Below, piece by piece: positions 10,857 to 25,723 of a stretch of DNA of 45,584 nucleotides (position 1 is the stretch's first letter; the number at the start of each line of letters is the position of its first letter). The notes beneath the pieces were generated by a model. The model was given only the letters and a program-made list of their open reading frames with translations, was not told the DNA's origin and ran no database searches. This DNA comes from Saprospiraceae bacterium (GTDB lineage Bacteria > Bacteroidota > Bacteroidia > Chitinophagales > Saprospiraceae): contig JAIBCG010000020.1 in assembly GCA_019694295.1 (NCBI GenBank), positions 1 through 45,584 of the forward strand, read 5' to 3'. Made by a program: the position numbers and the translations under genes.

Positions 10857-13073
10857 CTACCTCAACAAAGAAATGTCGCCCTTGATCTGTACAGGTTCTA
10901 TCGTTCCTTCGTTATTGAAATGGTAGCTTACCACATAAACATACACATCGGTAGGGGCCGGAGAATCATTGAATAAACCATCCCAACCTTCTTTGACATT
11001 TTCTGACTCAAACACCTGCTTCCCCCAACGATTATATACTCTGAGCGAATAATTCGATATCCTTGACGGACATGCGGCATACGGTCTGAAATGATCATTT
11101 TTGCCGTCACCATTTGGTGTAAACACATTAGGCATCACAAGTGTACAGTTGCACTCTTTTACAGTAATGTTGTAAAGGGCAATTTTCTTACATGGTGTGC
11201 CGGCAATAGTGTCTTTATATACACCGGCTTGTGTTACCTGAATATTTCCGATTTTGATGGAATCGCCCATACAAAGTACTGAGTCAATGGTTATTGTCTC
11301 CAACGGATTAAGAAAAACCAGTGTGTTTACAATGCTGTCACATTTTGCAGTGGCAATGGTGTCGCTGTACATGCCGGCTATATGTACATACGTGCCGTTT
11401 ATCAGAATGCTATCTCCTTCACAAATGTATTGCTGCTGAAGTGTTGTGACAACTGGATCAACGACCACATTCTTTGTAGCGGTGCTTTCCTTACAGCCAT
11501 CTGTTATCTTGACCGAGAGTACATAATTACCTTGCTGCGAATAGGTATGACTGGCTGCTGAACCACCGGTAACGATTGTCTGATCACCAAAGTTCCAGGT
11601 AGTACCAATGACGCTGCCATTCGTAGTCAATACGAATTCGCCTTTGCTATTCTGGCAAATTTGCTCTGGACCGGATATCTGAACCGACAATTCCGGGAAA
11701 TTGTTGCAATAAGCTTCTGAATTCAAATATGATCCTTTGGTCTCCTTAGGAGCATCCAAGAAAACTCCTCCTGTCTCACTCGAGTGAGGTGCACTTTGTA
11801 TATCCCATCCGTCTGACTGGGTGGCAAGTTCGTTCGTTACAACTATCTGATTGCAGCCACTGTCAAAATCTTCATCCATCTTGATAAACAATGGTGTAAA
11901 GAGTCCCTGACTGATATTGAGATTTGTAAAAGCAGACAAGATATAGCCACCGTCATAAGCCGGCTGCAGTTTGGTGTAATGCGAACCTCCCTGATTGTAC
12001 AAAACGGCCTTATTTAGATTGCCCACCGGGCTTATCCTGAACACTGCATTCTTGTTTGGCACAAAACCGACAGTATGGTTTGAAAACGAAAATGTAGCAA
12101 CACCAATTGCAAAATCGCCTGTTGATTCCTCCACCACAGAAGTGCCGCTATCCGATCCATCCGTACCTGAGATGCTGTAATAAATTTTCGAAAAAACAGG
12201 ATTGCCGGCGGTATCCGTTTTGATGACAAATACATCATGATAATCCTGAAATGAACTTTTGTTGATGGTAGTACCTCCGGTAATGACGTAATTTTTTTGG
12301 TCTTTAGTGACGAGTACATCGTAACCGGTAGTTGACTGGTTGGCAGCACCGTAGGCTTTTAGGAATTTGGCAACACCTTCTGCATTGGTCTTTAACAGAA
12401 AAGAATAAAATGTACCGTCAACGATATAACGACCAGTAGTCAGCAAATTGCCATAAGCGTCTTCTGCTATACCATAAGCCTCATCGATATTCTTATTGTT
12501 GCCGTATGTTTTACTCCATAATACTTCACCAGTAGCATCAAATTTTACCAAATATACATCCGACCAGTTATTGAGGACATCAGTACCATAACTTTTAGTC
12601 ATCCCTGCCACAGCAAAACCGCCGTCCTGAGTCTCGACGAGAGCCTGTCCGCGGGTTTCTCCAACTGTCACCATCCTTTTCTTCCATTTTACAATACCAT
12701 CATAACCAATTCTGATGACAATCATCGCGTAATTGTTAAAACTACCTGTGTTGGATACAACGACTATGTCATTTTCGCGTGTATCAATTACCCTGGGAGA
12801 AACATTATTGGCCGTACTTGAAGTACCGAACTCTCTTACCCATTCCACTTCACCATCACATTTCAGTTTTGTAAGTCTTACAAACGAGCCACCGGTAGTG
12901 TCGGCGATGCCAATCATAGCATACCCACCGTCTTTCAGGGCTGTACAATTGAGGGTTTGTGTCTGGAAATCTCTTTTGTAAATTTTTTGAAATGTGTATT
13001 TCTGTGCGAAAGATTGTTGGTTAAAACCACATAAAATGATCGATATGCAAATTAATTTCAAGAATTGTTTCAT
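10857..13073 (-). CDS. Type IX-secreted protein with PKD domain and gliding-type C-terminal domain
   Basis: A 738-residue secreted protein. Residues 1-24 are a signal peptide (LICISIILCGFNQQSFAQ). The first 420 residues hold repeated propeller-like strands (GGYAMIGIADT, GGFAVAGMTKS, GNLLTTGRYIV, GGYILSAFTN), each about 50 residues. A PKD fold follows near residues 480-540 (TTWNFGDQTIV, HTYSQQGNYVLSVKITDGC), then two short Cys-containing repeats (YICEGDSILINGTY, VLCMGDSIKIGNIQV). The last 85 residues are the CHU_C/gliding motility C-terminal domain (MPNVFTPNGDGKNDHF, RVYNRWGKQVFES, GWDGLFND), a type B secretion signal. A TTG at 13085 is possible, but the ATG at 13073 precedes the signal peptide directly. 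The target surface role is unknown. Confidence 0.88.
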   Translation of the reverse strand: MKQFLKLICISIILCGFNQQSFAQKYTFQKIYKRDFQTQTLNCTALKDGGYAMIGIADTTGGSFVRLTKLKCDGEVEWVREFGTSSTANNVSPRVIDTRENDIVVVSNTGSFNNYAMIVIRIGYDGIVKWKKRMVTVGETRGQALVETQDGGFAVAGMTKSYGTDVLNNWSDVYLVKFDATGEVLWSKTYGNNKNIDEAYGIAEDAYGNLLTTGRYIVDGTFYSFLLKTNAEGVAKFLKAYGAANQSTTGYDVLVTKDQKNYVITGGTTINKSSFQDYHDVFVIKTDTAGNPVFSKIYYSISGTDGSDSGTSVVEESTGDFAIGVATFSFSNHTVGFVPNKNAVFRISPVGNLNKAVLYNQGGSHYTKLQPAYDGGYILSAFTNLNISQGLFTPLFIKMDEDFDSGCNQIVVTNELATQSDGWDIQSAPHSSETGGVFLDAPKETKGSYLNSEAYCNNFPELSVQISGPEQICQNSKGEFVLTTNGSVIGTTWNFGDQTIVTGGSAASHTYSQQGNYVLSVKITDGCKESTATKNVVVDPVVTTLQQQYICEGDSILINGTYVHIAGMYSDTIATAKCDSIVNTLVFLNPLETITIDSVLCMGDSIKIGNIQVTQAGVYKDTIAGTPCKKIALYNITVKECNCTLVMPNVFTPNGDGKNDHFRPYAACPSRISNYSLRVYNRWGKQVFESENVKEGWDGLFNDSPAPTDVYVYVVSYHFNNEGTIEPVQIKGDISLLR

Positions 13074-13173
13074 AGTATTACCCAAAATTCAGTTATCTTT
13101 ATTTCAAAGTATAAAGGTATAAAAAATCTGATTATTTCGTTCCATTGTGAATGGGCACTTAAATTTTCAACGT

Positions 13174-14475: not shown

Positions 14476-16956
14476 TTACTTTACTTTTGCCCAAGTATTA
14501 CCTTTCTTAGTACAAACGTATGCATCTTTAAATCCTGCTTTCATAGCATTTTCGAGTGATGCCTTAGCTCCGGTCAGGTCTTTGTAGTAACCAAGATATA
14601 CTCTCGTCCATTCGCCGGCAGGTTCAGTTAAAACAATGCCGAGTGCTGCAAGCTTAGGATCATCCGAGAATTTCGGGTCGCGTACTGCTGCAATCCGGAC
14701 CCTGAAATTATCTTCCGGTTTAGGTTCTTCTTTCACTACTGTAGCAGGCTTCACCGCTATGGGTTTTGCTTCTGCTTGAGCTGGTTTTACATCTACCGCT
14801 TTTGTTTCTGGAACTTTTGTCACAACTTTTGGTTCAGATGGTTTTACTTTTGCCGGTTTGTTTTCTTCGGGTTTGGCTGCTACAGGCTCCTCAGCCTTTT
14901 TAACAGAAACATACTCTTTGTCTTCAACTATGAAACAACCCTTTACGTCATTTTGGGTAAGCAGACGGATGGCAGTCTGAGCGTCGGCTTTGGTAGCGAA
15001 ATTACCGATGCGTAGCTTTGATTTTTGACCGTCATCTTCAGTTGTATAGGCAATGGCACCTTTTACGATCTTGTTATATTTAGCATAATCGATCGGAGTC
15101 GAATTTTTCACAACACCTACCTGCACAGCATAAAGCCCCTTTGACCGGTAATTTTTGTTGGCTTCATTTTTCAATTGCTTGAAATACGCCTCAGTTGGTT
15201 CAAGCGTAACTATCATTTTTATCTTTTCTTCTGACTTAGCTGAAGTATTAACGAGTTTCGATTCCGATTTAAAATTATCAGACATTGTTTTGAAGAAATA
15301 CATTTTGTCCTTGGTTAGGTTGATTTTCAATTCACCTGCTGCATCAGACAAGAGTTTTTGGACAGACTCGCCTGCCTGAGTCGATATCTCGACCGGAATG
15401 GAAGGTACCGGGTCGCCATTTGATTTCATGATGAGTTGAAAGGTATATTCGATGATTCTTGGCTGGAGTACTACTTTACGGGTTTGTGAGCCAAAAACCT
15501 CATCTCTGGTCACCTCCAGTTTTTGAGTCTCATAGCCATCAAGCGAAATGGTACAGCTACATTTTTCTTTAGGCAATGTCTTAAAGAAAACTTTCCCTTC
15601 AGTATTGGTTGACATGACACTCAAGCCACAGTCATTGGCATCCACTACAGCCAGGTCAATGGTTTCACCTGTAGGTGTTTCTACTATCAGTGTGTAAGGC
15701 GCACCAATGTTTCTGACCCGGTAGATGTCGTCACCACCCTTGCCACCTTCACGGTTTGATGTAAAATAACCTGTATTCTTATCGGTATTCCAGACAAAAG
15801 CATAATCATCGTAGCTGGAGTTAATGCCCGTAAGCAAAACCTGTGGATTTTGCCATTTTTGGTCATCTTTCTGTGCAATGCAAATATCAAATCCGCCGAA
15901 AACTGAATACCAGTCGGATGAAAAATACATTTTGTCTCCCATAATAAAAGGTGAAATCTCTTCACCTGCCGTATTGACTTTATCACCAATATTAGCCGGC
16001 TCCGACCATTTATCGCCGAAGCGCTGCGACACATATATGTCATAACCTCCGTAACCGCCCGGCCTGTTACTTGCAAAGTATAGTTTTTGTCCGTTTTCCG
16101 CCAAAAATGGCCATGTAGTAGAATAACCGTTCACGTTAAAAGGCATTGCTTTGACATCCATCCACACGCCTCTGTCATTGACGCGTGCTATGTAAAGGTT
16201 GTGCTCCTTGCCTGTACCTGAGAATGGTCGTTCATGTTCATAATAACTACCCTTTGTAAAGACCACCCATTTATTGTCTGTGCTAAAAGATACCGGCATG
16301 TCGTTATTCTGATCCTGCAATTCGGAATGAAACAAAGCAGGTGGTTTTAGATAGCCGTTTTGGTCAGGTGTACTTGTTACCAACCTATTGAATGCCTTTC
16401 CTTCACCCGGTAGCTTGAGTTTTTTACCAGGCAACACGAGATCGGTACGACCTGAACCATACACAAACATATTGTTGTAAAATGCGCCACTGAAATCCTT
16501 TGATGGTGAATTAATGTATTCGTTTTTGACTTCGTGCACAGGTGTCTTTCCTTTGTTGGCGATTGCTGTTTCGCACATTTTCAGGTAGTGCGGAGCTGCT
16601 ATTGTGTCTTTTGCCTGGAGGATTTTAAACCATATCTTCGCTTCGTCGGTACTGCCTGTTGAACGCAAAGCCTGAGCATAATGCAAGGTATATTTTGGGT
16701 CAACATCGGGTTCGTTTATTTTTTTTTCATACCATTCTATGGCATCCCGCATTTTATTTGTAAAATAAAAGCATTCAGCTATCTGGAGATAAGCGCTCGA
16801 TTCGTTTGGATATTTCTCGATGACCCTAAGGTAGGCATCAATGGCTTTTTCGAATTGCTGGAGTTCAAAGAATTTATCAGCTTTCTTAGTATTGGTCTGA
16901 GCAAAGATATTTGCAGTAGAAAAAACGATTATCGCGAATAACAAAATGAATCTCAT
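14476..16956 (-). CDS. TPR / PD40 propeller envelope protein with two SPOR domains
   Basis: An 826-residue periplasmic protein. After a signal peptide (MRFILLFAIIVFSTANIFAQ) come TPR helices (about 20-130: KADKFFELQQFEKAIDAYLR, AYLQIAECFYFTNKMRDAIEWY). PD40 propeller repeats follow (about 200-430), with KLYFASNRPGGYGGYDIYVS, KMYFSSDWYSVFGGFDI and TGYFTSNREGGKGGDDIY. Then regulatory-like Ig folds (about 430-600), a SPOR domain (609-685), a 64-residue Lys/Pro/Glu linker, and a C-terminal SPOR domain (750-826). The frame opens at 17007, but only the ATG at 16956 gives the signal peptide. SPOR binds denuded glycan strands. The build is PorE-like, with SPOR in place of OmpA. It follows the PorE-like gene but is separated by a terminator. 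Its role in secretion or gliding is inferred. Confidence 0.82.
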   Translation of the reverse strand: MRFILLFAIIVFSTANIFAQTNTKKADKFFELQQFEKAIDAYLRVIEKYPNESSAYLQIAECFYFTNKMRDAIEWYEKKINEPDVDPKYTLHYAQALRSTGSTDEAKIWFKILQAKDTIAAPHYLKMCETAIANKGKTPVHEVKNEYINSPSKDFSGAFYNNMFVYGSGRTDLVLPGKKLKLPGEGKAFNRLVTSTPDQNGYLKPPALFHSELQDQNNDMPVSFSTDNKWVVFTKGSYYEHERPFSGTGKEHNLYIARVNDRGVWMDVKAMPFNVNGYSTTWPFLAENGQKLYFASNRPGGYGGYDIYVSQRFGDKWSEPANIGDKVNTAGEEISPFIMGDKMYFSSDWYSVFGGFDICIAQKDDQKWQNPQVLLTGINSSYDDYAFVWNTDKNTGYFTSNREGGKGGDDIYRVRNIGAPYTLIVETPTGETIDLAVVDANDCGLSVMSTNTEGKVFFKTLPKEKCSCTISLDGYETQKLEVTRDEVFGSQTRKVVLQPRIIEYTFQLIMKSNGDPVPSIPVEISTQAGESVQKLLSDAAGELKINLTKDKMYFFKTMSDNFKSESKLVNTSAKSEEKIKMIVTLEPTEAYFKQLKNEANKNYRSKGLYAVQVGVVKNSTPIDYAKYNKIVKGAIAYTTEDDGQKSKLRIGNFATKADAQTAIRLLTQNDVKGCFIVEDKEYVSVKKAEEPVAAKPEENKPAKVKPSEPKVVTKVPETKAVDVKPAQAEAKPIAVKPATVVKEEPKPEDNFRVRIAAVRDPKFSDDPKLAALGIVLTEPAGEWTRVYLGYYKDLTGAKASLENAMKAGFKDAYVCTKKGNTWAKVK

Positions 16957-17113
16957 GAGAATATTGTTTATTAGTAATTTTAATATGTTCAGCTGCGAAG
17001 TTATCACAAAAACGCTAAATATGGCAAATACTTATGCTATTTGAAGAAAAATGTGGCAAAAAATATACAATCCCCGACGGCTATTGGCCAAAAATGGCAA
17101 ATTTCATCTTCAT

Positions 17114-17190: not shown

Positions 17191-19638
17191 TCAGAAAGGG
17201 CAATTGATACATGGGTCAACCTTTGCTTTCTCGTTTGGTTTTGAAATTTTCTTCGTTTTGAAATCGGTACAACCTTTGCATCCTATAATTTTGAATTCAG
17301 TACGGCGGTTCATCTGATGTTGTTGTTCACTACATTTTACGGTATTTGCGCAGCCATTTGTAAGCATCGATTCTCCATAACCTTTAGGAACCATTCTGTC
17401 ACGAGCTACACCTTTATCGACCATCCAGTCAACAACTGATTGAGCACGTTTTTGAGACAGTTTTTTATTGTATCGAGACCCACCACGTGCGTCAGTGAAT
17501 GAGCAGATTTCGATGATGAGCTTATCGTTTTCTTGCATCATGGTGAGCAGTTTATTCAATTCAGGCATAGACTCATCGCGCAGGTCAAATTTATCAAAAT
17601 CATAATAAACATCTAGCAAATAAGCCACCGGTAGTCCATCACCATTTGTGTACTGGCTTGGTTCAAACATATTTGACTTTCCGGTAATGACTCCATCTTT
17701 ATAGGCGATACCATTAGACACACCTGTGAAAGGCATTCCGGTATCAGAATTTATGTATTTGCCTGTTTTAAGATCTTTAACAACCTTCTGTGGTTTAGCT
17801 GTCAGTGCGTTACCCATCGTAGGCTGTAAATACAGATTGCCCATTAGGTGAGCTTCTTCGGGCAGATTGACTGTACACAGGCTATCCTGAGAGTCTGCCA
17901 GGTAGTTGAGTTTTTCACCCTTCACCTTGAAGCAGCAATTTTCATCCACGCTAAACGAATAACGGCCTTCTTTGTCTGTTGTCAGATTGGTATTTTTGGT
18001 AGCATCGCAGTAGCTGGTGAGATACACAGTTGCGCCTTCAAGCGGCAATCCTGTACTTTGGTCGAACACAACACCTTCGAGGACAAACTGCTTTTTCTTT
18101 TTCATCGGTATTTTTGCCATTACCTTATCGCCAAGCATAGCATCTTTTGCACAGGTTTCAACCGTTTTTTGTGCGTATAGTTCTTTATCAGCAGTAAGCT
18201 TACAGCATTCGTTTAGTTTTATGTCAAAATATGCAAGCCCTTCTTTATTGGTAGTACGGGTAATGTTTCGGCAATTACTTTTTACGACAGCGCCTTCAAT
18301 AGGCAAGCCTGATAATTCGTCATACACTAATACTTCGAGTGGTGAGGCGGTTTTCTTAAAATAATAAATATCATCGCGTCCCAGTCCACCGTCACGGTCT
18401 GATGAGAAGAAGCCACAAAGACCATCTTCAGAAACAATCAAACCAAAGTCATCTGCATTGGTGTTAATAGGATAACCAATATTTTCGAGTACGCCCATGG
18501 AGCCATCAGGCTGTATTGATACCATAAAAATATCAAGACCACCCAAACCGGTATGACCGTCGGATGAGAAATACAGTCTGTTGCTGGCATGCCATACGGG
18601 AAATATTTCGTTACCTTCTGTATTGATATCTGCACCCAAATTCACCGGAGGTGACCATCTGCCATTCTCCTTCACACTTTTATACAGATCCATACCACCA
18701 AATCCTCCGGGCATATTGGAAGAAAAATACAGTGTATTGCCATCACCTGTTAAGGCCGGATGCGCAACAGAGTATTCGTCGCTGTTAAAAGGCAGACTTT
18801 CCTGTTCGCCCCAACCATCGCCCTGGCTTTTTGCAGTATAGATTTTCAGGTTTACGATATTTTCATCGCTCTTACCGGTTTTGCCAGACAAATAATTATT
18901 GCGTGTAAAATATATCTCTGAATAATCACTATTAAATGCTACCGCAGCATCGTGATACTTAGTATTGAGTGATGCGTTGAATTTTTTAGGTTTTCCGAAT
19001 GCAAGAGGTGTACAAGTTTTATTGTTGAGGTCTTTTGAGTCAACCTGAAACAAGTCGAGAAAAGGAAGGCCCGTCCAGGTATGTTCGCGTTTGACAGCAT
19101 ATCCTTTGTCGCGCTCGGAGGCAAACACAAGAGCACCTTTATAGAAAACCGGACCAAAATCATCGAGGTTAGAATTAAATGGCAAATAGTCGATTGTATA
19201 AATATCACCGTTTTTATTCATCAGGTCTTCCTGCATATCACATGCTGCAAGCAATTGTTTGCCCCTGACATCACCAGGTACAGCTTCGTTATATTTTTTG
19301 AAATATTCCTTTGCTTTATCGCACTTGCCATTTTTCTGCAATGCCTCACCGTAATATAACTGGTGAATGGGTTGAGCTTCAGGTAGGATGACCACTTGTC
19401 CGTACCAGTACTCGGCATTTTCAGCATCGTCGATTTTGCGGTAAGCTTCTGCAATATTTATTTTTGCTTCAGCATTATCGCGTTTCTCCAGTACTTTGTT
19501 GTAAATACGAATTGCTTCCTTGTATTCAAGATTTTTCATCATTTTTCCGGCACGTTTCAGGTCTGCTCTCTGGGCTTCTGCTACAGACGCAAGCATTACG
19601 ATGCTCATGACGATTAAAATTACTTTTCTGACTGACAT
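17191..19638 (-). CDS. PorE-like type IX secretion protein (TPR, PD40, regulatory fold, OmpA)
   Basis: An 815-residue protein with the domain order of PorE of Porphyromonas, which links the type IX apparatus to peptidoglycan. After a signal peptide (KVILIVMSIVMLASVAEAQ) there are TPR helices (AGKMMKNLEYKEAIRIYNKVL), PD40 propeller repeats (TLYFSSNMPGGFGGMDLY, RLYFSSDGHTGLGGLDIFM, GFFSSDRDGGLGRDDIYYF), carboxypeptidase-regulatory-like folds (LPIEGAVVKSNCRNI, LPLEGATVYLTSYC), and a C-terminal OmpA domain (DVYYDFDKFDLRDES, SFTDARGGSRYNKKLSQKRA, PKGYGESMLTNGC, NRRTEFKIIGC). The frame allows a TTG two codons upstream; the ATG at 19638 is chosen. It follows porP by 32 bp, so they are one transcript. 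Whether it is the housekeeping PorE or a dedicated paralogue is not clear. Confidence 0.82.
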   Translation of the reverse strand: MSVRKVILIVMSIVMLASVAEAQRADLKRAGKMMKNLEYKEAIRIYNKVLEKRDNAEAKINIAEAYRKIDDAENAEYWYGQVVILPEAQPIHQLYYGEALQKNGKCDKAKEYFKKYNEAVPGDVRGKQLLAACDMQEDLMNKNGDIYTIDYLPFNSNLDDFGPVFYKGALVFASERDKGYAVKREHTWTGLPFLDLFQVDSKDLNNKTCTPLAFGKPKKFNASLNTKYHDAAVAFNSDYSEIYFTRNNYLSGKTGKSDENIVNLKIYTAKSQGDGWGEQESLPFNSDEYSVAHPALTGDGNTLYFSSNMPGGFGGMDLYKSVKENGRWSPPVNLGADINTEGNEIFPVWHASNRLYFSSDGHTGLGGLDIFMVSIQPDGSMGVLENIGYPINTNADDFGLIVSEDGLCGFFSSDRDGGLGRDDIYYFKKTASPLEVLVYDELSGLPIEGAVVKSNCRNITRTTNKEGLAYFDIKLNECCKLTADKELYAQKTVETCAKDAMLGDKVMAKIPMKKKKQFVLEGVVFDQSTGLPLEGATVYLTSYCDATKNTNLTTDKEGRYSFSVDENCCFKVKGEKLNYLADSQDSLCTVNLPEEAHLMGNLYLQPTMGNALTAKPQKVVKDLKTGKYINSDTGMPFTGVSNGIAYKDGVITGKSNMFEPSQYTNGDGLPVAYLLDVYYDFDKFDLRDESMPELNKLLTMMQENDKLIIEICSFTDARGGSRYNKKLSQKRAQSVVDWMVDKGVARDRMVPKGYGESMLTNGCANTVKCSEQQHQMNRRTEFKIIGCKGCTDFKTKKISKPNEKAKVDPCINCPF

Positions 19639-19670
19639 ATTCAATGGTTTATGGAATGTTCGTGGAATAT

Positions 19671-20660
19671 TTAGAAATATCTTGGTGTTACGATCTTATT
19701 TGTCTTGTAGTCGAATTCGTATCCGAGCATAACTTCGAATGAACCATCGTTGATGGCACGTAGCTGTTTGGGTAGTGAATAATCATAAGCAACACCGATG
19801 CGGAGGCCGTTGCTCATCAGGTAGCTCGCCCATACATCCCATGAGTCGTATGTACTTCTATCGTTATCAAATGCCTCTACAGACGAACGGAATGCTGTAC
19901 CCACCCACAGCGACTGATAGAACAAGAATGAAAGGTCGATATCAAACTCTGTTGGAGCAGTCACAGACTGGAAAGCAACTTCTTTGCTATACTTGCTTAG
20001 CAGACCAACATTTTTAATAAGCAATGATGGTTTGAAGACAACGTCCGGCCCATTGACATTAATGGCTCCGCCCATTGAGAAATAATAGTGTCTGTATTGT
20101 TTTGCATACAGGTCATTATCTACTTCTTTCGGAGATAGATCGTACTCTATCAGATGTGGCACACCAAGGCCGGCGTAGAATCTGTTGGTATAATAATATA
20201 CGCCTGCTCCAAAGTTAGGCAGCCATTTGTTGGGTGTAACTTCAAAGTTCGGATCAGGATCCTGAATGGTTAGTTTTGACCAATCGGCTCTGAAATTATT
20301 AACACCTGCCTGCAATGCGAAGGACAATCGACCAAAACCAACCGGTATGTGGTAAGCGTATGCCAGATTAGCCAGTAGTGTGTTGGTCGGGCCTATTTTG
20401 TCGTTCACAAGGTTAAAACCAATACCAACCTTATCATTTCGTAATGGTGTGTGTATGGTAAAAGTCTGGGTAGTAGGTGCACCTTGGAGGCCAATCCACT
20501 GAGATCGGTGAATGAGGGAAATCGACATGTGATCTTGCGAACCTGCATAAGCCGGATTATACCAAAGACTGTTGAACATATATTTGGTAAACATCGGGTC
20601 CTGCTGGCTGAAAACATTGCCCGCATAAAGGAACAAGAATGCTATTAATAATTTTTTCAC
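19671..20660 (-). CDS. PorP/SprF family type IX secretion outer-membrane protein
   Basis: A 329-residue beta-barrel protein. The signal peptide (KKLLIAFLFLYAGNVFSQ) is followed by the family hallmark QDPMFTKYMFNSLWYNPAYAG and then SISLIHRSQWIGLQGAPTTQ, typical of PorP/SprF. Alternating strands such as GIGFNLVNDKIGPTNTLLANLAYAY and LRIGVAYDYSLPKQL continue to the C-terminal F (VTPRYF), a usual barrel ending. Family members such as SprF are required for secretion or anchoring of the neighbouring adhesin with a type B C-terminal domain. Here the gene sits directly after such an adhesin (59 bp gap) and before the PorE-like gene, so it is probably the dedicated partner of the 1667-residue protein. 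Confidence 0.93.
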   Translation of the reverse strand: MKKLLIAFLFLYAGNVFSQQDPMFTKYMFNSLWYNPAYAGSQDHMSISLIHRSQWIGLQGAPTTQTFTIHTPLRNDKVGIGFNLVNDKIGPTNTLLANLAYAYHIPVGFGRLSFALQAGVNNFRADWSKLTIQDPDPNFEVTPNKWLPNFGAGVYYYTNRFYAGLGVPHLIEYDLSPKEVDNDLYAKQYRHYYFSMGGAINVNGPDVVFKPSLLIKNVGLLSKYSKEVAFQSVTAPTEFDIDLSFLFYQSLWVGTAFRSSVEAFDNDRSTYDSWDVWASYLMSNGLRIGVAYDYSLPKQLRAINDGSFEVMLGYEFDYKTNKIVTPRYF

Positions 20661-20719: not shown

Positions 20720-23700
20720 TTACCTATAAATTACCAAATATCCTGAGTATGTTTTGCCTTTTCCGTCTTCAATGATGTAGAAATATGTACCGTCCGGCAG
20801 TGGCTTATTCTCCCATGTGCCTTCCCAGGTATTCAGATATTTCTCTTCAAAATAAACCCTGTTGCCCCATCTGTTGAAAATGTAGAGTTTGTTGTCAGGG
20901 AATTTTTCAATATTCTTTATGGTGAATACGTCATTTTTTCCGTCACCGTTCGGTGAAAATCCATTAAATACCTCAAGCGTATCTGTTTGATTAGGCGGGC
21001 ATTCTATGTTGATTATCACCACAGCAGGGTCGCAGTTTTGTCCAATGCACAACAAGTATGTGAATATATCTTCGCCACAATAACCATCATCCGGGATGTA
21101 GGTAATGCTACCATCAGCATTGACTGTCGCTGTTCCGTGGTTTGGACCTGTACCGCCCAATGATGGAGGCAATATCGTAACAACACCGGCACCACCCGGA
21201 TTTACATCATTGCCAAGCACATTGATGACTACCGGAACATTAATATTCGTACTCACCGAATCATCAACTGCTATCGGGTTTGCGTTGTTTTCGATGACTG
21301 TTATGAAAATGGTAGTAGAGTCGCAGATGCCAAAGGTATCGCAATATACCAAGCACAGTGTGTCTTTGCCCGGCACAAGTCCGGTAACAGTAACACAAGC
21401 CGTCTGCTCGTTGATGGTATATGATATATTGCCACTACTCTGGTCAGGACAAATATTTACAACACTTAGAACATTGCCAGCCAGTTCGGTCGTATCAAGA
21501 CAATATACTTTTGTACTGTCAACATGAATGATGTCTGTAATAATGTCCGGAGCAGGCGGAATGACCGTAACGATAATGTGCGTTAGCAACGAATTACTGT
21601 CAGCATCTGATATTTTAATACATGCTGTATCCGTACCAATGCCTAGGCCTGTATAATACACACAGGCGGTGTCGCCCGAAATGGTAAAATCTACAAACGT
21701 GCCCGATTCATCCGGACAGATATTCTCAATCTTTATAGTATTAGGATCAAAACCACTGATATCAAAGCATAAAGTATCCTTAAAATGTACAAGAATTGTA
21801 TCATACACTATTTTGACATCATCTTTATAGACATTGGTAATCAATGTTACCGTATCGCAATAACCGAGATTATTGCAGATGACAAAGCATGCTGTATCAG
21901 GTCCACCTACTGCAATACCTACTATGGTCACACAGGTATCTGTAAGCAGGTAAAAATAAGCTGCGTTGGTACCCGACTGTTGAGGGCAGATATTGACAAT
22001 AGATGAAATGTTACCGCCTATGAGGTCAGGATCAAAACAATGCTGGAGTGACCCGCCTTCTTTCACATTGAAATAGAGTGTGTCGGGGAATTGTTTCTTT
22101 ACGACTTGGACAATGATAGTAGTAGTATCGCAGAATCCATTGGAGCCACAGATAACTATGCAGGCAGTATCCGTACCAAATGCCTGAATGCCTTTAAACT
22201 CTATACAATGCGTATTACTATCATAGCTCATCGAAGCATTTTGCCCCATTGACTGTGGGCAGAAATTGATAAAACTCACAATAGCAGACCCGATTTCTGT
22301 AGTGTCGAGGCAATATTTTACTGTAGCGCCTTCATATACTGTAAGATTGACTGTTTCAGGTGTTATTATTTTTGGAATGACATTTACAAATATTATTGTC
22401 GTATCACAGAAACCTGTACTGTCACAAGCCACCATACAGAAGATATCCTGACCAAAAGGCTGTACACCGATGAAAGTAAAGCAATTGGTAACAGGATCAA
22501 AGCTGGACTGTGTATAATTGCCACTTTGCTGAGGGCATAGATTCTGAATGCTTGCCACACCTGTAGAAAGATCAGACAAGTCAAGACAATACTGAATGGT
22601 GTCGGTGACATCAATGGTCAGATTAACCACTAGAGGCGGATTGTTCTTTTCTATCACATGAATGAGCAATGTGACTGTATCGCATTTATTAGGTCCGCAG
22701 CAAAATGCCAGACAAAGTGTATCTGTACCCGGGGCTGCCACTCCTTTTATTTTAGCACATAGCGTAATGCTGTCAAATACTATTGAAGAATTATCAAAAA
22801 CAGTATTTCCACAAATATTTTCAATAGAAAGCACAGGCATACAAACACCGGCTTCCGTAAAACAATACTCAAGCGTTTTACCTTTTTCGACTGTTACTTC
22901 TACAGTCTGATTATTCTTATAAGGCAATACATGGACGATAAGTGTAACCGTATCGGATGTTGTACCACAATTGACTACCAGGCAAAGTGAATCATCGCCT
23001 TGTTTGAAACCGGTAATCTTAGCACAAATATTATATGGATCGAGCTGGATGAGTGCATTTTCACCCGAAGCATCCGGGCAGATATTTTCAACAGAAAGTA
23101 TTGGTGAGCAGAGTTCTTTTTCATCAAAACAATACAGTATTTCATCACCAACCTTGATGGTTATTTCTTTAAGGTTTTTATTTACAGGTGGTGTTACCTG
23201 CACAATGACTATGACTGTATCCGACTGTCCTGCACATTTAATTACCAGGCAGAGAGAGTCTGCCCCATTTGCTTTGATTCCCTGAATAAATGCGCAGCCG
23301 GTAGATGCGTCAAAATCTATGATGGCGTTTTCTCCGGAAGCACCAGGGCAAATATTTTCAATACTCAGAATAGGTGAACATAAAGCAGTCGGGTCAAGGC
23401 AATAAACCATTGTCTCCCCTTCCGGAACGGATAGATTTACAACTTCTTTGGTACCGTCTTTAATGACATGAACAGCTACTATTACCGTATCGGTCACATT
23501 GCCACAATTAAACACCAGACAAATAGAATCTGTGCCACCCGCTTCGAGCCCATCTATGAGTACGCAGCCGGTATTTGGTTCGTAGGCTATCTGCGCATAA
23601 GTACCTGCAGAACCCTGGCAAATATTCTGTACAGACAAGATAGGCGAACAAACAGTATTAGGGTCTATACAATATTTTAAAAATTCTTCTTCCTTAACGG

Positions 23701-25723
23701 TGAGTTGGATGAGTTTATGGTGCGAAGCAGGCAGTACATTGATGATTAGGAAAACTGTATCACAGTTGCCAAAATCGCAGCAGATATTCAGGCACAATGT
23801 ATCTTTACCGCCCGGATTTATACCGGCAATATTAAAACACAGTGGATCGTTACCGGGTGTTATCTCCGAATTGTCAAATAATTTGTCGGGGCAGAAGTTT
23901 TGTACTGAAATAATTGGTGTACAAACCAAATACTGATCAATACAATATTGAATAGTGGTACCTTCTACAACGTCAACAATAATTTCAGTTGGGTCGGTGT
24001 GTTCTACCACGTGATAGATAATGATGGTAGTGTCACAGATGCCGGCATCCGTACAAACAACGATACAGGCAGAATCGACACCTGGCAATATTCCTAAAGC
24101 ATACACGCAATAGGTAGCCGGATCAGGTGCCACATCGGCATTAACGCCTGACTTATCGGGACACACATTCGTGATAGAAACAAGGTTGCCCGAAAGTTGC
24201 GTTGTATCAATACAATAAGAAATAACTTCATTGTATTCGATGGTAATATCTATGACCTTTGGCGGATTTGGATCCTTGTAAACATCGATGATGACAATAA
24301 TGGTATCACATATATTGCTGGCATCGCATACCACATAACAGGCAGTGTCCTTACCGGGTGCTTTCAAACCCTTGATGCCCATACAGGCTGAGGCGAAGTC
24401 AAAAGAGATTTTTGCATTATCACCTGCTGCATTGGGGCAAATATTTTCAATTGACTTATAGCCATTGGGCAATTCGCTAAGATCGAGACAATATACAATC
24501 GAGTTTTTTTCCTTTACCTTCAGATAAACCGTATCAGCTTTTGGTAATGGCAGCACATTTACTATAAGCTTGAATGTGTCGCAATACGACGAATCTGTAC
24601 ATATAACATAGCAGGCAGTATCAGAACCGACCGATAAGCCGGTCAGGAATACACAGTAATCAACATTATTTGTATAAAAATCAACATCGCCATCGGCTGC
24701 ATCCGGACAGATATTTACCATAGAAACAGCATTGCCCGGAAGTTGTGAAATGTCAAAACAGTGAAGTGTGTCTGTGAGCTCAAAAATATTGATAACAATA
24801 TCATTCGAACCTGTAGGAGGTGTTACCTTAGTAATAATGGTAGTAGTGTCACAGATACCATTGGCATCACAATATTTTGCACAAAAGGTATCTACCCCAA
24901 CTTCGAGCCCGGTAAACTGGATACAATTGTTTGCTAATATACTGTAGGTGACATTACTGCCACTATGATCCGGACAAATATTAATAACAGATACAATCGG
25001 ACCGGTAAGTTCGCTTGCATCAAGGCAGTAAACGTCCGATTTAGATTTTTGTACAGTATTATATACCACAGAAGGTTTTACACATACATATTGGAGATCG
25101 ACTGTGTCTGAAACGTTCGTTATAGTATTTGTAAAAATGATATGGTGTTTGCCTGTCTCCAAAAAGATCTTCACTCCTGTTCCGTTAATGCCGATATTAA
25201 GCCCGATATAACCTTTTGCACCACCAAGGGATAGAACTGTCACGTCCATTTCTGAATAATCGGAGCCCGATTTACCTCCGGAAATGAGGAAGGTATTGGG
25301 GTCATAAGTCCAGTTGCCAGCCGGGTCCCAGTTGTTCATTAAAATCAGGAGTTCATCCGGGTTTTGGAAAAAACCGGAAAAAACCTGCCCATTTACTTCC
25401 CATTTATCGAGATGATACGGACCTAATTTTCCAAATCCGTACAAAGTAAACAATGTGTAGATGAAGCTTGAGTCTTCCTGACAATTAGCGATTGAGCCGG
25501 TATATACACTGTCGTTCACAGTAATCTGTAGATCGCCGGGGTTGGCAAGATCATCGAGACACAAGTCTAGCTTTGCAGTACAGTCATTGGTCTGTTTGAA
25601 AAGCTCAGAAGGTAAATGAATGGTATCGGGGTTAAAATAAGAAGGAGTATAACCTTGTATAAAACTCAGGTTAGCAAAAAATACCAAGCATACTATTAAC
25701 CTTAGATGTACTTTTACTTTCAT
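20720..25723 (-). CDS. Giant Cys-rich repeat adhesin with type B (gliding) C-terminal domain
   Basis: A 1667-residue surface protein. A signal peptide (residues 1-24) leads into an N-terminal region of about 195 residues with no recognised family. Then 14 tandem repeats of about 90 residues (about 220-1482) each carry YCLD, NICP, a central Cys, DTACxVxC and CDTT. Next comes an Ig/cadherin-like fold (1483-1579: AVDDSVSTNINVPVVINVLG, HGTATVNADGSITYIPDDGY). The last 88 residues are the CHU_C domain (NGFSPNGDGKNDVFTI, YIFNRWGNRVYFEE), a type IX signal of type B. Repeats 5-9 are a separate subfamily with changed cysteines. It heads an operon with PorP and PorE-like genes. By comparison with SprB it is likely a cell-surface adhesin, perhaps in gliding; this is inference. 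The repeats are not close to a family I can name. Confidence 0.87.
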   Translation of the reverse strand: MKVKVHLRLIVCLVFFANLSFIQGYTPSYFNPDTIHLPSELFKQTNDCTAKLDLCLDDLANPGDLQITVNDSVYTGSIANCQEDSSFIYTLFTLYGFGKLGPYHLDKWEVNGQVFSGFFQNPDELLILMNNWDPAGNWTYDPNTFLISGGKSGSDYSEMDVTVLSLGGAKGYIGLNIGINGTGVKIFLETGKHHIIFTNTITNVSDTVDLQYVCVKPSVVYNTVQKSKSDVYCLDASELTGPIVSVINICPDHSGSNVTYSILANNCIQFTGLEVGVDTFCAKYCDANGICDTTTIITKVTPPTGSNDIVINIFELTDTLHCFDISQLPGNAVSMVNICPDAADGDVDFYTNNVDYCVFLTGLSVGSDTACYVICTDSSYCDTFKLIVNVLPLPKADTVYLKVKEKNSIVYCLDLSELPNGYKSIENICPNAAGDNAKISFDFASACMGIKGLKAPGKDTACYVVCDASNICDTIIVIIDVYKDPNPPKVIDITIEYNEVISYCIDTTQLSGNLVSITNVCPDKSGVNADVAPDPATYCVYALGILPGVDSACIVVCTDAGICDTTIIIYHVVEHTDPTEIIVDVVEGTTIQYCIDQYLVCTPIISVQNFCPDKLFDNSEITPGNDPLCFNIAGINPGGKDTLCLNICCDFGNCDTVFLIINVLPASHHKLIQLTVKEEEFLKYCIDPNTVCSPILSVQNICQGSAGTYAQIAYEPNTGCVLIDGLEAGGTDSICLVFNCGNVTDTVIVAVHVIKDGTKEVVNLSVPEGETMVYCLDPTALCSPILSIENICPGASGENAIIDFDASTGCAFIQGIKANGADSLCLVIKCAGQSDTVIVIVQVTPPVNKNLKEITIKVGDEILYCFDEKELCSPILSVENICPDASGENALIQLDPYNICAKITGFKQGDDSLCLVVNCGTTSDTVTLIVHVLPYKNNQTVEVTVEKGKTLEYCFTEAGVCMPVLSIENICGNTVFDNSSIVFDSITLCAKIKGVAAPGTDTLCLAFCCGPNKCDTVTLLIHVIEKNNPPLVVNLTIDVTDTIQYCLDLSDLSTGVASIQNLCPQQSGNYTQSSFDPVTNCFTFIGVQPFGQDIFCMVACDSTGFCDTTIIFVNVIPKIITPETVNLTVYEGATVKYCLDTTEIGSAIVSFINFCPQSMGQNASMSYDSNTHCIEFKGIQAFGTDTACIVICGSNGFCDTTTIIVQVVKKQFPDTLYFNVKEGGSLQHCFDPDLIGGNISSIVNICPQQSGTNAAYFYLLTDTCVTIVGIAVGGPDTACFVICNNLGYCDTVTLITNVYKDDVKIVYDTILVHFKDTLCFDISGFDPNTIKIENICPDESGTFVDFTISGDTACVYYTGLGIGTDTACIKISDADSNSLLTHIIVTVIPPAPDIITDIIHVDSTKVYCLDTTELAGNVLSVVNICPDQSSGNISYTINEQTACVTVTGLVPGKDTLCLVYCDTFGICDSTTIFITVIENNANPIAVDDSVSTNINVPVVINVLGNDVNPGGAGVVTILPPSLGGTGPNHGTATVNADGSITYIPDDGYCGEDIFTYLLCIGQNCDPAVVIINIECPPNQTDTLEVFNGFSPNGDGKNDVFTIKNIEKFPDNKLYIFNRWGNRVYFEEKYLNTWEGTWENKPLPDGTYFYIIEDGKGKTYSGYLVIYR
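21278..25066 (-). repeat. Fourteen tandem coding repeats of about 270 bp
   Basis: The region encodes 14 repeats (about 90 residues each) in the giant adhesin. They are clear at the protein level but diverged in DNA, so recent copying by recombination is not evident. Repeats 5-9 (about 22633-24000) are more like one another (CSPILS motif) than like the rest. Confidence 0.85.

Follow-up and report, generated by a model that had tools for sequence, protein, structure and literature searches.

Covarying cysteines suggest optional disulfide staples in the Ig-like stalk repeats of a type IX secretion system type B surface protein

The genome of a Saprospiraceae bacterium encodes a cysteine-rich protein made largely of repeats, in which some cysteines are invariant while others come and go in pairs. 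This raises the question of whether the paired cysteines form disulfide bonds that can be lost or gained by single repeats. We analysed a stretch of 45,584 nucleotides (the window), in which the protein, adhesin-like and 1667 amino acids long with 95 Cys, is encoded on the minus strand at 20720-25723; all features of the protein and its neighbors described below lie on this strand. Its C-terminal sorting domain (20723-20974) matches both the CHU_C profile PF13585 (95.1 bits against a cut-off of 27) and TIGR04131 (61.7 bits against 35). Assignment as a type B C-terminal domain cargo of the type IX secretion system (T9SS) was judged by this sorting domain and by a nearby PorP/SprF-like gene, both of which are present. 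The N-terminal region (amino acids 1-215, 25079-25723) has a signal-peptide-like start, MKVKVHLRLIVCLVFFANLSFIQG, and gave no match when searched against Pfam.

Between these ends lie 14 repeats (R1-R14), each of 89-92 amino acids and 20-52% identical to one another in pairs. The first-pass annotation had marked the span 21278-25066, which is the repeat array that we place at 21287-25078 (amino acids 216-1479), shifted only in phase. It had also described four cysteines kept by every repeat, and our alignment agrees: columns 18, 35, 53 and 68 (C1-C4) are Cys in all 14. Of the variable cysteines, e (column 72) and f (column 78) were said to be either both present or both absent, and a second pair, g (column 25) and h (the position directly after e), to be confined to R5-R9. 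The alignment matches this exactly. In addition to C1-C4, e and f are found in R1 (24812-25078), R2 (24542-24811), R3 (24266-24541), R4 (23996-24265), R10 (22364-22639), R11 (22091-22363), R12 (21821-22090) and R14 (21287-21553). R6 (23453-23722), R7 (23183-23452) and R8 (22916-23182) have g and h in addition to C1-C4, and a turn between strands F and G that is shorter by one residue. Both pairs, and thus eight Cys, are found in R5 (23723-23995; g at amino acid 601, e at 648, h at 649 and f at 654) and R9 (22640-22915), while R13 (21554-21820) has C1-C4 only. The annotation had taken the two pairs for alternative disulfides; this fits R6-R8, which carry g and h without e and f, but the pairs are not strict alternatives, as R5 and R9 carry both.

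If the repeats were independent, the chance of such identical sets in 14 repeats would be 1/1001 for e and f and 1/2002 for g and h. Kinship violates this assumption: R5-R9 form one clade (see below), and the evidence within the protein therefore amounts to about three concerted events. This small number would suit a reading in which the cysteines occur and vanish together only because they were inherited within a few repeat types, without being linked structurally. The force of the evidence comes from a larger sample of repeats, drawn from homologues.

A profile built from the 14 repeats picks out two more proteins in the same genome and, across 150 genomes of the family, has matches in 80; where relatives have named records, nearly all of these are from Saprospiraceae. 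The repeats are therefore members of a widespread Saprospiraceae domain family. The first-pass annotation knew of no named family with this pattern, and among 101 repeats tested we found no Pfam or NCBIfam model for them: just one touches a tandem-95 model, and just two touch Big_9 at E <= 0.01, a profile that matches the Big_9/cadherin-like Ig domain between the array and the sorting domain (21011-21286; PF17963, 55.4 bits against a cut-off of 23.6). A sequence search of the PDB with the repeats returned nothing (E 1.1). In all, 738 repeats were gathered, from which we took a non-redundant set of 557 (<80% mutual identity) from 158 ORFs. The search pattern for part of these relatives required e and f; in the 418 repeats gathered without it, e and f are both present in 331, single in 6 and 2, and both absent in 79, which leaves the result below unchanged.

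If e and f are bonded to each other, homologues should seldom carry one without the other. We found both in 447 of the 557 repeats, a single one in 6 and 2, and neither in 102 (phi 0.954), so that 549 are concordant and only 8 discordant. Six of these eight are copies in one tandem protein (L182; G284 C14, an ORF of ~9951 aa) that keep e and have Lys in place of f. Shared descent does not account for this agreement. Both e/f states are present in 63 of the 158 ORFs, and when f was shuffled within ORFs (2000 shuffles) the number of discordant repeats averaged 120 and never fell below 96. A tree made with the trait columns left out has 51 changes of e and 50 of f, and the two move together: on well-supported branches they change jointly in 6 of 7 independent pairs and never in opposite directions (p 0.03), while the control pairs e/C4 and e/C1 show no such linked change. 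For e and f, the sampled sequences thus contradict the shared-descent reading already, and we give it next to no credence. From the family tree, we propose that most repeats of the family carry e-f by default and that the two cysteines have repeatedly been lost or regained jointly. That bonded cysteines come and go together is an established principle for assigning disulfide connectivity (PMC3548674); in contrast to that use of correlated mutations, the signal here was read inside one repeat array and then confirmed in the family.

A bond also requires that the two cysteines can meet. Structure prediction, suggested by the first-pass annotation, was carried out with AlphaFold2 on the single repeats R5 and R7, with 101 aligned repeats each. 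Both models (mean pLDDT 93; 93.3 for R5 and 93.2 for R7) are Ig-like with seven strands, which in R5, lettered by their order along the repeat, span 3-11 (A), 14-18 (B), 28-33 (C), 43-47 (D), 53-58 (E), 64-73 (F) and 78-88 (G). At the tip of the R5 model, F ends with e (72) and h (73), G begins with f (78) and the B-C loop holds g (25), so that e and f are opposed across the F-G hairpin with g and h at the same tip. The R7 model has a shorter F-G turn (strands 63-73 and 76-87), consistent with a one-residue deletion in R6-R8. In the core, C1 (18) ends B, C3 (53) starts E, C2 (35) lies just past C, and C4 (68) lies within F.

Couplings between alignment columns give the same picture. By mean-field direct coupling analysis (DCA), the pairs 70-76 (e-f), 17-52 (C1-C3) and 34-66 (C2-C4) rank 1-3 among 3403, with 5-82 next, and these first three ranks hold when all repeats of the window are removed. 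The F-G pairs 62-84, 64-82, 68-78 and 70-76 have the common index sum 146, from which we infer that e and f are cross-strand partners in the hairpin. Taken together, the covariation over 557 repeats, the top-ranking coupling and the facing positions make it very likely that e-f is a disulfide bond, as had been suggested from the 14 repeats.

The predicted seven-stranded beta sandwich resembles that of Ig-like and cadherin-like domains such as Big_9, Rib, dystroglycan and titin Ig domains, although identity to these is only ~6-18%. Solved structures that match the models (Ig, cadherin, Rib and dystroglycan domains) reach Z ~7-8, the best of them Z ~8 over 83-89 residues. We read these matches as a common fold, which does not establish kinship. 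Among the best is the collar of phage Milano, and here too we rejected kinship and took Z ~8 as common fold. The bonds set the repeats apart from the classical Ig domain: where the latter has a B-F disulfide, the predicted bonds of the repeats run B-E, C-F, F-G and from the B-C loop to F.

For the two core bonds, covariation and the models assign C1 to C3, linking strands B and E, and C2 to C4, linking strands C and F. C1 and C3 are both present in 520 of the 557 repeats, single in 2 and 3 and both absent in 32 (phi 0.923); the corresponding counts for C2 and C4 are 487, 3, 15 and 52 (phi 0.840). On the tree, these pairs offer too few supported changes for a test of their own. A further optional bond may exist in relatives, though it is absent from this protein, between column 5 in strand A, or the linker that precedes it, and column 82 in strand G (both in 18 repeats, single in 1 and 22, neither in 516; phi 0.637). 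We considered column 82 as a link between repeats and rejected it: its partner is apparently the Cys of column 5 or, in many of the repeats that lack the latter, a linker Cys just before the domain, and we therefore read it as an A-G bond. The even number of cysteines per repeat noted by the first-pass annotation holds for all 14 here (6, 6, 6, 6, 8, 6, 6, 6, 8, 6, 6, 6, 4 and 6 from R1 to R14) but does not extend to the family, where 94 of 557 repeats (17%) have an odd number; some family cysteines are therefore not paired inside the aligned domain.

How the two optional pairs came to be distributed along the array depends on the history of the repeats. With the trait columns masked, R5-R9 form one clade (support 99/81, or 83/79 with fewer relatives). 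Inside it, the unmasked tree separates (R5, R9) from (R6, R7, R8), which implies that g-h was gained once and e-f lost once, by way of an ancestor with both, as the first-pass annotation had supposed for this block. The masked trees instead group R8 with R5 and R9. However, a tree with R6-R8 together is not rejected (1.4 log units higher, p-AU 0.58), and the one-residue deletion common to R6-R8 favors a single loss of e-f. The intermediate with both pairs is thus compatible with the trees and plausible. By this account, g-h would have been gained once, in the ancestor of R5-R9, and would have replaced e-f at the same tip in R6-R8; e-f would have been lost there and in R13.

The state of R13 is shared by an orthologue. 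A same-genus contig (L109; G092 contig 589) carries an orthologue of R11-R14, 70% identical over 328 amino acids, with 20 of 20 Cys kept and synonymous sites near saturation, and its R13 likewise has neither e nor f. At ~987-989 in L109, a TGA stands at the e codon of repeat 14 (CFVF*DDLGVCDTT) and the frame continues beyond it; the TGA probably reflects either an error in sequencing or a nonsense mutation.

For g-h the support is weaker. Both cysteines are present in 6 of the 557 repeats, g without h in 22, h without g in none, and neither in 529 (phi 0.454). No close relative of the R5-R9 block was found outside this protein, and a wider profile search of 398 genomes returned ordinary repeats only; in this sample the pair appears essentially private to the protein and to one clade. 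An order-level relative (L183), which has VCAPS and one additional Cys located between e and f, may represent a parallel case. By the first-pass annotation, the disulfide reading would fail if one member of a pair were commonly found without the other. The e-f pair withstands this; for g-h the picture is ambiguous, as h is never alone but 22 other repeats have a Cys near g and no h. These repeats (L191, L061, L110 and the L053/L068/L064 group) are mostly from divergent subfamilies, in which the partners differ or the Cys count is odd. Most have lost a core Cys or have a Cys at column 80, and g would therefore pair differently there. In one five-Cys subfamily (L053, L068, L064, L091, L251 and L264), ESCFD near g occurs with a column 80 Cys (DTTC), C2 is lost and C4 kept; this may represent another bond layout or one free thiol.

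One could argue from these data that g and h are not bonded within a repeat, and that the extra cysteines of R5-R9 pair between neighboring repeats or molecules, or stay free, being shared by descent only. As R5-R9 are one clade, the co-occurrence of g and h counts as one event, and the seemingly unpaired cysteines elsewhere in the family lend this argument some weight. However, the two positions are coupled in relatives that have no Cys there: with all window repeats and every repeat bearing a Cys in the g/h region left out, 23-71 ranks 9 and 26-72 ranks 16 of 3403 DCA pairs, although ~5% of random blocks of this size contain a pair ranked as high. R6-R8 keep an even Cys count without e-f, and bonding of g to the h of the next repeat would leave the block with an unpaired Cys at both ends. 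The B-C and F-G loops adjoin in Ig-like folds, as do CDR1 and CDR3 in antibodies, and a g-h bond therefore fits. We regard this alternative as unlikely and an intra-repeat g-h disulfide as probable, on the strength of the coupled regions and the common tip and with the reservation that the Cys pair itself comes from one clade of one protein.

In R5 and R9, e and h are adjacent and form a vicinal CC, which places four Cys near one tip. This could suggest that the tip cysteines bind metal or do redox chemistry and are not structural disulfides. We consider this very improbable, as e-f is gained and lost strictly as a pair, most repeats have just two tip Cys, and known metal-binding families give no match. 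Equally doubtful, in our estimation, is a switch at the CC, driven by force or a change in redox state, from e-f with g-h to e-g or h-f and back, which would make R5-R9 a tunable mechanical element and would resemble the disulfide isomerization reported for titin Ig domains (PMC5766482). Structural staples are thus our preferred reading of both pairs: e-f would shut the F-G hairpin, and g-h would fasten the B-C loop to strand F at its end.

The genes around the protein suggest where such a stalk would stand. The next gene downstream (19671-20660) encodes a PorP/SprF-like outer-membrane protein (PF11751, 238 bits), followed by a PorE-like protein with TPR, PD40 propeller, CarboxypepD_reg and OmpA domains (17191-19644; the PorE architecture of PMC9143113) and by a second PorE-like protein with SPOR in place of OmpA (14476-17007), the SPOR being its likely peptidoglycan-binding part. 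Another T9SS type B protein (742 aa, 10857-13085) combines a PKD domain with an SBBP-like propeller region. This arrangement shares with PG1035-PorP-PorE of Porphyromonas gingivalis (PMC9143113) the type B sorting domain and the order of a PorP/SprF-like and then a PorE-like gene on the same strand; it differs in the 14-repeat Cys-rich Ig-like stalk and in having two PorE-like genes, the second with SPOR. Type B proteins bind PorP-like proteins in experiments in P. gingivalis and F. johnsoniae, and PorE-like proteins have been postulated to link non-mobile type B proteins to the cell wall (PMC9143113). The gliding adhesin SprB of Flavobacterium johnsoniae is likewise a repetitive surface protein with a type B C-terminal domain beside an SprF-like gene. 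During gliding, however, a twin-Cys in the C-tail of SprF joins SprF to GldK (PMC12635249), whereas the PorP/SprF-like protein here contains no Cys, so that it lacks this tail and a disulfide of the SprF-GldK type is impossible. By analogy, a fixed surface protein on a non-mobile anchor is the better guess, given the Cys-less partner and the PorE-like neighbors: the PorP-like partner would hold the protein on the outer membrane and the PorE-like proteins would tie it to the cell wall. A role as an adhesin is suggested by architecture alone.

Disulfide formation would take place either in the periplasm or outside the cell. Disulfides are documented in the Bacteroidota periplasm (PMC12635249), but the ~84 repeat Cys raise the question of how they are oxidized, as searches of the genome for DsbB, VKOR and Thioredoxin_4 gave no match. 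The sole DsbA-family protein found (G000 C2:2227-2814; L284 1303-2304) is FrnE-like; its N-terminus is signal-like and it carries a CSSC motif.

Altogether, we hold with considerable confidence that the stalk of this T9SS type B cargo consists of the 14 repeats as Ig-like beta-sandwich domains in tandem, each with two core disulfides and with optional staples at the B-C/F-G loop tip that would stiffen a long, thin surface protein. They belong to a so far unnamed family of Cys-rich Ig-like repeats with optional, non-canonical disulfides, and define an unmodelled Ig-like domain family in Saprospiraceae surface proteins. The pattern illustrates how sequence by itself can point to the bonded cysteines, and to a bond that a repeat can lose or shift without losing its integrity. 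It also provides a natural series within one protein, from R13 with two predicted bonds through R4 and R7 with three in different places to R5 with four, which could be used to measure the contribution of each disulfide to stability and stiffness.
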